Origin: Candidatus Nitrosymbiomonas proteolyticus
GTDB taxonomy: Bacteria > Armatimonadota > Fimbriimonadia > Fimbriimonadales > Fimbriimonadaceae
DNA: 64,000 bases
Direction: 5' to 3'
Assembly (NCBI GenBank): GCA_017347465.1
Contig: AP021858.1
Span: 2,498,472-2,562,471, forward strand
Below, in pieces: positions 6,874-10,421 of this stretch. The position numbers and the translations under genes were made by a program. The stretch's first letter is position 1; the number at the start of each line of letters is the position of its first letter. Below the pieces are notes generated by a model that was not told the DNA's origin, made no database searches, and worked only from the letters and a program-made list of their open reading frames with translations.

Positions 6874-8829
6874 CTAAGATGTCTCGACGGCGCCTTCAAA
6901 AAAAGTCGCTTTCTCGTTCAGCGCGAGCGCCGCGGATATCCACTCGGAATGCGACCAAGCCAAGGGGCTGACGCTGAGCGGCTCGCCGGTGTAGGGGTGA
7001 ACCTGCTCGGGCAAGACCCCGGTGGGGGCGGCGACCTTCTGCGCCCACTTCATCAGATCGATCGCTCTTGCGAGGTGATCGTCCGCGTCGAACAGCAGGT
7101 GGCACCTTGCGAGCCAGAGCGTGCAGATCACCCAAGGGTTGCCGGGAAGGTCGTGGCTGACCCGGAAGTAGTAGTCATCCTCGTACCGAGCGAGTCCGCC
7201 GACCTCGGTTCGAACCCAGAGCCGCTCTTCGATGGCTTGGAGAGTCGAATGCGCGAATTCGTGATGGGGAGCCACCAACCCCACCAAGAGCAGCCACAGC
7301 GCCGATGCGTCGATCGTGGGGTCTGGCTTTCCGTCGGGGTCGAGCCGCCGAAGAAAACAGCCGCCGGAGGCGTCGTACATCCCCTGCAAAACCGCAGAGC
7401 GAATTTCGCTCGCCCCGGCCGCCCACCTCTCCGAGGAAGCATCGCCCAACCGAAGTGCCCACGCGGAGGCTCGGTCGAGCGCCCAGAAAACGGTCGCGCA
7501 TGTAAACGCATGGACTCCCAACCGCTCTTCCCAGAGATCGTAGCTGGGCAAGGGGAATCCGGTCTTGGGCGACCGAAAGCCGTAGAGAAATCCCGCTAGC
7601 GGCTTGGCGAGGGTTTGGAAGGCCTCGGACTCCCGTTCGTCACCGGCTCGCCGTTCCAACCGGTCACACAGGCTCACCAGCGCGAGGGCAGTTTGATCGA
7701 GTTGCAGCGGTACGCCGTGCGGAAATGTCTCGTTCCAAGTGTGCCACGACGCGCCCCACTTTCCATCAGGGCGGTACTTCTGAAACAGCCCCGGCCGATC
7801 AGGCTGTATCACCGAAGCGAGGAACCGCACCCACCGCTCCGAGGGATCGCCCCAGCCCAGCGCGTCCAGCGCCATGACCGTAAGCGAGGCGTCTCTGGGC
7901 CAGCAGTAGCTGTAATGCGCCCTCGCGGTCTTCATGATGTCGGAGTCGTTGGCCGCGATCACCGCGCCCCCGGCATCGAGGTGCGTCCTCAGAACCTGAA
8001 GGCTTTGCAGCGTCGCCAGCCTCCACTCCTCATGCAATGCGTGGATTTGGGCAAGGGCGGCGAGGTTGAGGTTTTCGGAAGCCGATCGGGCTTGGGCAAG
8101 CACCTCCAGGAGCGACGCCCCAGTGAGGCTTGCCGTTCTGCTCCGAACGTCTTCAAGGTCAGTTCCTGCCACGATCCACAACTCGAGGTCGGCGCTTTCG
8201 TTCGGACCCAAACGAACGGCGAGCGAGAAGGTGGAGTCCACCGATCCTTGGCTGATGGGGTGGCCCGAGAGGTGGCCGTCTTCCGCGTCGCGCCAGGTGC
8301 CTTCGAACCCGCCGAAGTCCTTGATGCCGGTGGCGAACTCGAAGAGGCCGCCGCTTGAAGATCGCCCGCCAAAGAGGAACCAGTGCGCGCCCTTGTAGTG
8401 AATCAGGGCCTCTGAGACCGGATCGAAGAGGGCCGTGTCGCCGATTTCAGTCCCCGCGATGCGCAGGTCGTTGTGCTGAAAGAGGCGAACCTCGCGCTCC
8501 TGCTCTGCCCGATTGAGGATCTTCAAGCAGCGGACGAACACGGGCTCGGTGGGGTGAACCGCCTCGCGCACCTCGACCGCGATTCGAAGTTCGCTCGAAT
8601 CCAAGTGGGTGAGGCCGCAGAGGGTGCTTGGATCGTACCTCTGGCGAACCTCCCAGCCTTCGTCGCCGACCCAACTCAGATTCTCCTCGCACCAAAACCC
8701 CCACCGGATGGCGTGGCCTGAGAGGTGGTTGGGGAGCCCGCACTGCGGGAAGTAAAGGTCGCGGATGCGGTGGCCCGCATCCAGGCAGAGGTGGAAGATT
8801 CCGTTTCCGAAGACGAGCGGGCGAGGCAT
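6874..8829 (-). CDS. GH15 glucoamylase-type glycoside hydrolase
   Basis: A 651-residue protein with the two-part GH15 layout: an N-terminal beta-sandwich domain (about residues 1-260) and a C-terminal alpha/alpha barrel. GH15 landmarks include YCWPRDASLT, WNETFPHGVPLQLDQT and, near the C-terminus, LAWSHSEW, which carries the likely catalytic base glutamate. No signal peptide is visible, so it probably acts inside the cell on alpha-glucans or trehalose-like substrates. It is transcribed alone; a CATACT -10 box lies 14 bases before the ATG at 8829. Substrate cannot be told from sequence. Confidence 0.88.
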   Translation of the reverse strand: MPRPLVFGNGIFHLCLDAGHRIRDLYFPQCGLPNHLSGHAIRWGFWCEENLSWVGDEGWEVRQRYDPSTLCGLTHLDSSELRIAVEVREAVHPTEPVFVRCLKILNRAEQEREVRLFQHNDLRIAGTEIGDTALFDPVSEALIHYKGAHWFLFGGRSSSGGLFEFATGIKDFGGFEGTWRDAEDGHLSGHPISQGSVDSTFSLAVRLGPNESADLELWIVAGTDLEDVRSRTASLTGASLLEVLAQARSASENLNLAALAQIHALHEEWRLATLQSLQVLRTHLDAGGAVIAANDSDIMKTARAHYSYCWPRDASLTVMALDALGWGDPSERWVRFLASVIQPDRPGLFQKYRPDGKWGASWHTWNETFPHGVPLQLDQTALALVSLCDRLERRAGDERESEAFQTLAKPLAGFLYGFRSPKTGFPLPSYDLWEERLGVHAFTCATVFWALDRASAWALRLGDASSERWAAGASEIRSAVLQGMYDASGGCFLRRLDPDGKPDPTIDASALWLLLVGLVAPHHEFAHSTLQAIEERLWVRTEVGGLARYEDDYYFRVSHDLPGNPWVICTLWLARCHLLFDADDHLARAIDLMKWAQKVAAPTGVLPEQVHPYTGEPLSVSPLAWSHSEWISAALALNEKATFFEGAVETS

Positions 8830-8843
8830 AAAGCGTGGCTCCC

Positions 8844-8849
8844 AGTATG
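8844..8849 (-). promoter_or_regulatory. -10 box of the GH15 gene
   Basis: On the minus strand GCCATACT, with CATACT at 8849-8844, lies 14 bases before the ATG at 8829. Transcription would start about seven bases before the start codon, leaving almost no leader. Confidence 0.4.
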
Positions 8850-8980
8850 GCAGCGGCCGCAGCGTGGGTTTTGCGCCGGGCAGGCTGGCGGGACAATGAA
8901 ATGTCGCTATTCCCTGGTAATTGTCTCGGTACCGGTCACAGATTCGGCGCGATTCGACAAGTACCTAATAGACTGATCTG

Positions 8981-9210
8981 CTTGTCGCCCCTCCATGCGA
9001 ACGGATGGGGAATGATTGATGGGAAAGGAGCGCATAGGAGGCTTCCGGTTCGAGCGAACCGAGAAAGCCGCGCTGTCCCGTCCCTTTGCATGGGGCGGCT
9101 GAAGTAGGTCGTTCGGCGTCGACTTCGGGTCCTCACGGCCCCCTACGACGTCACAACTCAACTCACACCCGTATGATGGCCCCGACGACCAAGTTGTCGG
9201 GGCGCCTTTT
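8981..9210 (+). ncRNA. Candidate structured RNA of unknown family, ending in an intrinsic terminator
   Basis: The 404-base interval 8830-9233 has no protein gene but can be read as an RNA gene. A TAGACT -10 box at 8969-8974 predicts a start near 8981. From 8984 to 9099 the plus strand can fold into one rod. P1 pairs 8984-8991 with 9092-9099 and 8995-8998 with 9088-9091. P2 pairs 9018-9024 with 9076-9082. P3 pairs 9029-9033 with 9070-9074. P4 pairs 9040-9044 with 9065-9069. P5 pairs 9046-9051 with 9056-9061, closing a GAGC loop. A 19-by-5-base internal loop separates P1 from P2 and a 6-base bulge separates P3 from P4. A hairpin follows at 9101-9126, then a terminator. The rod with a large internal loop recalls 6S RNA, but I cannot assign a family. 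Confidence 0.55.
9179..9210 (+). terminator. Intrinsic terminator upstream of the NamZ gene
   Basis: GCCCCGACGAC (9179-9189) pairs with GTTGTCGGGGC (9193-9203) as an 11-bp stem with one G-U pair and a CAA loop, followed by GCCTTTT. No protein gene lies upstream on this strand, so it most simply ends an RNA transcribed from the preceding interval. It stops 24 bases before the next start codon. Confidence 0.8.
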
Positions 9211-9233
9211 CCGTAAGCGGATATCATGGAGGC

Positions 9234-10421
9234 ATGGTATTTGCGAGCGTTATGTTGTCAGCGTTGTCGATAGGTCAGGCGCCCGCCGTGCTTAGCGGCG
9301 TCGACGTGCTCGAACGGTCGGGTTTTCAGGCTCTCATCGGCCGTAACGTCGCGCTCATCACCAACCACACCGGGAAGACCGCGGACGGCCGGTCGACCGT
9401 GGATGTTCTCTTCGAGGCGCTGGGGGGTCGACTCAAGGCTTTGTTCGCGCCCGAGCACGGCATCAGAGGGGACCTGGACGAGCGCATCCCCGACGGAAAG
9501 GACCCCCGCACCGGGTTGCCTGTTTACTCCCTCTATAACCCTGGGACGGGCGAGCAGAGGTACCAACCCACCTCGGCGCAGCTTGAAGGCGTGGATACGC
9601 TCGTGTTCGACATTCAAGACATCGGGGCGAGGTTTTACACGTACGTGGGGACCCTTGGATATGCCATGAAAGCCGCCGCTTCGCGCGGGATTCGGGTGGT
9701 TGTTCTCGATCGGCCGAACCCTATCGGCGGACAAAAGGTCGAGGGCCCTGTGGCCGACAAGGAGCGCTTGGGGCTCACGGCCTTCCACCCGATTCCAGTT
9801 CGGCACGGCATGACCGCCGGGGAACTTGCAGGGCTGTTCAAGGATGAATTGAAGCTGAACGTCGAGCTCCAGGTGATCTGGTGCGAGGGTTGGCGAAGGG
9901 ACATGTGGTGGGACCAAACGGGTCTTACGTGGGTCAACCCTTCTCCCAACATGAGATCGGTCACGCAGGCCACGCTTTATCCCGGCATTTGCTTGGTCGA
10001 AGCGACCAACGTATCGGTGGGCCGGGGAACCGACACGCCTTTCGAGTGGGTAGGCGCGCCTTGGCTCGACGGTCCGAAAATCGCGAATGCGCTCAACGCT
10101 CGCAAGATTCCGGGCGTTCGCTTCTATCCCGTGCGGTTTCGACCTAATGCAAGCAGGCACGAGGGCGTGGACTGCGGCGGCGTGGCCTTCCTGGTGACGG
10201 AGCGAGACAAGCTCGATGCGGTTCGCGTGGGGTGTGAACTTGCCCACGCGCTGAAGACCGCGCACCCGGAATGGGACACCTCGCGCCTCGTCAACTTGCT
10301 CCAAAACAGCCAAGCGGCGGCCACCGTGTTGGAATCAGGGTACGAGGCCGCCTACCGCCAATGGAAGGCTGGGCTGGACGAATTCGTCCAACGCCGCAAG
10401 AAATACCTTCATTACCGGTGA
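9234..10421 (+). CDS. DUF1343/NamZ-type exo-beta-N-acetylmuramidase
   Basis: A 395-residue protein of the DUF1343 family, whose studied member NamZ removes terminal MurNAc from peptidoglycan fragments. Family blocks are easy to see: LFAPEHGIRG, VFDIQDIGARFYTY, LDRPNPIGG and WVNPSPNMRS. The first 18 residues are hydrophobic and end in small residues (IGQAPA), consistent with a signal peptide and action outside the cytoplasm. TATCAT at 9222-9227 lies six bases before the ATG, with GGAGGC in the gap, so the gene may be leaderless even though the gap itself resembles a Shine-Dalgarno. A likely role is peptidoglycan recycling; no other recycling gene adjoins it. Confidence 0.88.
   Translation: MVFASVMLSALSIGQAPAVLSGVDVLERSGFQALIGRNVALITNHTGKTADGRSTVDVLFEALGGRLKALFAPEHGIRGDLDERIPDGKDPRTGLPVYSLYNPGTGEQRYQPTSAQLEGVDTLVFDIQDIGARFYTYVGTLGYAMKAAASRGIRVVVLDRPNPIGGQKVEGPVADKERLGLTAFHPIPVRHGMTAGELAGLFKDELKLNVELQVIWCEGWRRDMWWDQTGLTWVNPSPNMRSVTQATLYPGICLVEATNVSVGRGTDTPFEWVGAPWLDGPKIANALNARKIPGVRFYPVRFRPNASRHEGVDCGGVAFLVTERDKLDAVRVGCELAHALKTAHPEWDTSRLVNLLQNSQAAATVLESGYEAAYRQWKAGLDEFVQRRKKYLHYR

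Follow-up and report, generated by a model that had tools for sequence, protein, structure and literature searches.

A probable small-RNA gene with promoter and terminator signals of its own in front of namZ in a Fimbriimonadaceae genome

The gene-free interval in front of namZ in the window (the whole 64,000-nucleotide stretch of DNA analysed here, taken from the closed 2.81-Mb genome of a little-studied Fimbriimonadaceae bacterium) is the probable site of a small-RNA gene that is about 228 bases long, distinct from its neighbours, and equipped with start and stop signals of its own. This interval, which an earlier sequence-only reading had correctly measured at 404 bases, extends from 8830 to 9233. 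It is bounded by a GH15 glycoside hydrolase gene on the minus strand (6874-8829) and by namZ on the plus strand (9234-10421), which encodes an exo-beta-N-acetylmuramidase (Pfam NamZ_N 2.5e-78, NamZ_C 4.1e-41). Since these two genes diverge, there is no plus-strand gene upstream that would need a terminator in the interval. A CATACT box at 8849 on the minus strand could be the promoter of the GH15 gene, with space left between the two genes for an RNA gene. The favoured explanation, held with moderate confidence, is an orphan, free-standing small-RNA gene at about 8981-9208, located between two unrelated genes. The proposed RNA (8981-9210, plus strand, with its end near 9208) is delimited by a promoter signal and a terminator signal, both on its own strand.

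Gene calling and signal statistics were carried out on 464 kb of the same genome, namely the window plus 400 kb, and promoter positions were sampled at the 123 genes that start with ATG and have free DNA upstream. At these genes, TAnnnT boxes peak at -12 (14 genes) and -13 (7 genes), against about one per position elsewhere, which indicates leaderless promoters. Other genes show a peak of SD-like 4-mers between -9 and -16, and the organism appears to use both kinds of start, leaderless and SD-led. In the window and in L243-L262, leaderless promoters have a TAnA(A/C)T-type -10 box and no visible -35; the TAGACT box of the proposed RNA gene also lacks a -35 hexamer, as is usual in this genome. 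A -10 profile trained on the leaderless genes of this genome, with namZ left out, was used to scan 8830-9260. On the plus strand, the best-ranked site is TATCAT at 9222-9227 (p 9e-5 per position), which lies outside the RNA, 12 bases before the ATG of namZ, as in the leaderless type. The second is TAGACT at 8969-8974 (p 0.0004 per position), the box already pointed out by the sequence-only reading, with a predicted start at about 8981; it is unchanged in the conspecific genome. TAGACT thus provides, by the profile only, the own promoter expected of an orphan intergenic sRNA gene, and TATCAT appears to serve namZ as a leaderless promoter, downstream of the terminator of the proposed RNA.

This intrinsic terminator (9179-9214) had been described as an 11-bp hairpin with a T-run, and its arms indeed pair 9179-9189 with 9193-9203, followed by the tail TTTTCCGT (9207-9214), with TTTT at 9207-9210. 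Its stability exceeds that of shuffled sequences (z -4.8 to -5.6). In the 464 kb, TTTT after a strong hairpin is enriched behind same-strand gene ends. The tail TTTTCCGT occurs there 11 times, at 5 non-coding and 6 coding sites, and a strong hairpin (at least as stable as -15.9 kcal/mol) precedes it at all 5 non-coding sites (RNA locus included) and at none of the 6 coding ones. Because this tail follows a strong hairpin only at non-coding sites, the hairpin 9179-9203 is very probably a true terminator; given its place ahead of the namZ promoter, the transcript that it ends would be an RNA of its own, about 228 nt long. An orphan intergenic sRNA gene is expected to have its own terminator, and here a stem of -19.8 kcal/mol is combined with the genome-typical tail. 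Elsewhere, at about 19729 on the minus strand of L256, a genome-style terminator was noticed 523 bases past the nearest same-strand gene; it possibly belongs to another unannotated transcript.

Between these two signals, the main structural element is a predicted rod (8984-9099, plus strand), which was also detected from DNA alone as inverted repeat I1. The rod itself withstood reanalysis, but not the 35 pairs first attributed to it: its minimum-energy structure has 40 pairs (26 GC, 10 AU, and 4 GU) and -56.6 kcal/mol. It consists of two outer arms (8987-9009 and 9077-9099), an apical hairpin (9029-9074), and a purine-rich internal loop of 19 bases (about 9010-9028). This large loop had been drawn as 19 by 5; the 19 bases were recovered, whereas the other side is shorter, giving about 19 by 2. 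The downstream linker (9105-9178) is weakly structured, with no structure beyond the shuffled level (z -0.3 to -0.4), and includes a G-free stretch (9149-9171). The shuffled-sequence comparison that had been proposed as a check gave z of about -3.4 to -3.9 for the rod, and in one run none of 500 shuffles was equally stable; however, of 942 windows of 120 bases sampled here, 21 (about 2%) have a z below -3, 6 of these 21 being coding, so that the folding energy of the rod alone is weak evidence and not exceptional. A competing 3' hairpin (9078-9084 with 9092-9098) had been put forward as part of a possible switch. The hairpin is real (-13.1 kcal/mol on its own), but forcing it into the structure costs 8.4 kcal/mol relative to the rod, and a switch between the two, while possible, is not favoured by the folding model.

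The distribution of the RNA is very narrow. Rfam 15 gave no match at the locus, either at the gathering score or at E 10, with 6S and riboswitches included, although the method does recover tRNAs and a TPP riboswitch from other parts of the genome. When as many as 113 genomes from the order were searched by BLASTN, the RNA was found only in the other genome of the same species (CP054189.1), where it is 98% identical; the weak matches are scraps of 16-43 bases. CP054189.1 is the metagenome-assembled genome of Chthonomonadaceae bacterium H1_ARM1, placed by its authors in the Fimbriimonadaceae, phylum Armatimonadota (PMC7648391). The 111 other genomes of the order, among them one of the same genus, yielded no homologue. 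A covariance model built from the single sequence recovered the RNA in the conspecific genome only; its other matches in family genomes were rejected, those read being C-rich-armed repeats and, in one case, an inverted repeat that looks repeat-like. Following namZ and the GH15 gene by synteny likewise uncovered no conserved intergenic RNA. The candidate had been presented as an undescribed family: it matches nothing in Rfam and has promoter and terminator signals of its own, but the term family is not supported, as a single species carries the RNA.

Comparison of the two conspecific genomes shows that 7 of the 404 interval positions differ, compared with 5.0% of the third codon positions of the window; divergence is low in other intergenic regions of the window too. 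All four substitutions inside the RNA leave every pair intact and two of them (9064 and 9145) add one, in two sequences that are 98% alike; the change A9145T creates the extra pair in the small hairpin of the linker. The three substitutions within the rod all fall at unpaired positions (P 0.028). These substitutions are compatible with a conserved structure and are no proof of it. A conserved small protein was rejected as well: in a 31-aa frame overlapping the rod, 2 of 3 changes are non-synonymous.

Several other readings of the locus have to be weighed. The sequence-only reading had left two models side by side, a free RNA and a conditional leader, and it is the free-standing RNA that is favoured, because the namZ -10 box lies downstream of the terminator and the tail of this terminator is typical of the genome. 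The leader model nevertheless keeps a little weight. In it, the rod would belong to a long 5' UTR of namZ and respond to a signal, with the terminator controlled by attenuation. The T-run does end just 23 bases ahead of the namZ ATG, and a potential antiterminator exists: about 9102-9116 pairs with the 5' arm of the terminator (-16.6 kcal/mol, 2.5% of shuffles being as good). In a read-through RNA, moreover, a hairpin of 12 bp at 9217-9244 would enclose the namZ start codon; at -18.6 kcal/mol (z -5.9), it is the most stable among 50 gene starts in the window. Yet in the full-length fold the terminator fully outcompetes the antiterminator, the SD sequence GGAGG ends 1 base before the ATG, too near for good function, and relatives of namZ elsewhere in the Fimbriimonadaceae have no such leader. 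Because TATCAT, at exactly -12, seems to give namZ a leaderless promoter past the terminator, a conditional leader is unlikely; a leaderless mRNA would hold neither the antiterminator nor the start-codon hairpin. A pairing of CCTCCATG in the rod with CATGGAGG in the SD region of namZ was discarded, as an 8-mer of this kind is expected by chance and would be absent from a leaderless mRNA. Separately, a dyad ATATCATG-GAGG-CATGGTAT (9221-9240), of which no second copy was found in the genome, spans the namZ -10 box and start codon; an operator or a start-codon hairpin is possible there. The locus might, on the other hand, harbor no RNA gene at all, and the rod could be a short palindromic repeat in decay (of the REP or MITE type) or an inverted repeat that arose by chance beside a DNA-level regulatory site of namZ. 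Such an origin is improbable. Each outer arm folds on itself, as in paired REP elements, C-rich palindromic repeats are what the single-sequence model retrieves in other family genomes, and the rod's minus strand, at z -3.3, is almost as well folded as its plus strand. Nevertheless, the genome contains no second copy of the rod, which has a promoter box on one side and a genome-style terminator on the other. When the two inverted repeats detected from DNA are read as plus-strand sequence, their mismatches comprise 4 G-U, 0 A-C, and 2 C-C; arm mismatches that are G-U and never A-C mildly favour a plus-strand RNA. Other genomes of the family (loci L210, L211, and L212) contain many copies of C-rich REP-like palindromes, such as CCTCCCCA-AGC-TTGGGGAGGGG.

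A further reading, suggested by the 6S-like layout noted earlier, is that of a highly diverged 6S RNA, or of a replacement for it, that binds RNA polymerase via its bubble. The candidate is a rod with one large bubble that begins at about +4, and 6S is undetectable in the Fimbriimonadaceae while present in sister families. The Rfam 6S model (RF00013) matches in 9 of 61 relatives, all from sister families of the order and none from the Fimbriimonadaceae. An order-level covariance model was built from the nine sister-family 6S RNAs; it recovered 6S from all the f2 genomes to which it was applied, and from f3 too, with scores of 110-162 bits, and gave only weak matches in the Fimbriimonadaceae, at 22 bits or less. 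These weak matches were treated as chance, those whose surroundings were read being located inside ORFs. Across this family (G000-G036), 6S was thus detected in none of 37 genomes with RF00013 and convincingly in none of 25 with the order-level model, and it may have been lost or have strongly diverged there. In lactic acid bacteria and B. subtilis, 6S is described beside rarA (PMC8414754), and in two sister-family genomes (L006 and L007) the 6S gene directly precedes rarA; rarA has no match in the genome of the window, and no 6S was found beside rarA in the Fimbriimonadaceae genomes that have it. Against a 6S identity of the candidate itself, RF00013 gave no match in 8880-9240 at E up to 10, and the best plus-strand scores of the order-level model within the RNA are 0.9 and 2.5 bits, versus 110-162 for true members; held against the order's own 6S RNAs (about 0 bits), the resemblance collapsed. 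A 6S RNA has a stem closing the whole RNA, a central bubble, and an apical stem, whereas the rod accounts for 116 of about 228 nt. It is also shorter, with a very asymmetric bubble and a long 3' extension, and the RNA has no relative even in the same genus. No test made supports 6S, and the candidate was not filed as such; a diverged 6S RNA is highly improbable, and there is equally little reason to believe that a lineage-specific rod RNA has taken over the 6S role in the Fimbriimonadaceae. The family-wide non-detection of 6S, with sister families keeping it, is a more general result than the candidate RNA.

Under the preferred reading of a free-standing small RNA, RNA polymerase would start near 8981 from the -10-only promoter TAGACT. 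The transcript would fold into a 116-nt rod, with its apical hairpin and purine-rich internal loop, followed by a loose linker, and would end at the intrinsic terminator near 9208; namZ would be expressed from TATCAT at 9222 as a separate leaderless mRNA. When two accessible stretches of the RNA were compared with 364 genes, no mRNA target scored better than shuffled seeds. Given this target scan, our guess, of low confidence, is that the RNA would act in trans by binding a protein through its rod rather than through a long mRNA-pairing seed. The neighbouring namZ, which encodes a secretory enzyme, offers no clue to function, as the arrangement is not conserved elsewhere. If transcribed, the candidate would be an undescribed small RNA in a phylum with almost no RNA biology in the literature searched. 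Restricted to one species, it opens no new class, and the case shows that genome-specific promoter and terminator signals can separate a free RNA from a leader without RNA-seq.

The candidate can finally be compared with known systems. With the 6S RNAs of RF00013 and of the Fimbriimonadales (L002-L010, L106-L109) it shares a long rod, a large bubble, and a beginning few bases past the predicted start, but it has no sequence or covariance-model match to them, its rod measures 116 nt versus about 150-180 nt, its bubble is about 19 by 2, and its terminator and 3' extension lie outside the rod. Like attenuation leaders and riboswitches, it places a structured region and a terminator, with a possible antiterminator, ahead of a gene; unlike them, it precedes a gene that appears to own a leaderless promoter after the terminator, and it matches no Rfam riboswitch. 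The REP-type palindromic pairs of L210-L212 resemble it in having two self-complementary C/G-rich arms in inverted orientation, whereas the candidate is single-copy and framed by a promoter and a terminator. As for orphan intergenic sRNA genes, the candidate differs from them in being restricted to one species and predicted from sequence alone, but it has in common with them a plus-strand -10 box, a structured body, a hairpin-plus-T terminator, the lack of a conserved ORF, and a site between unrelated genes.
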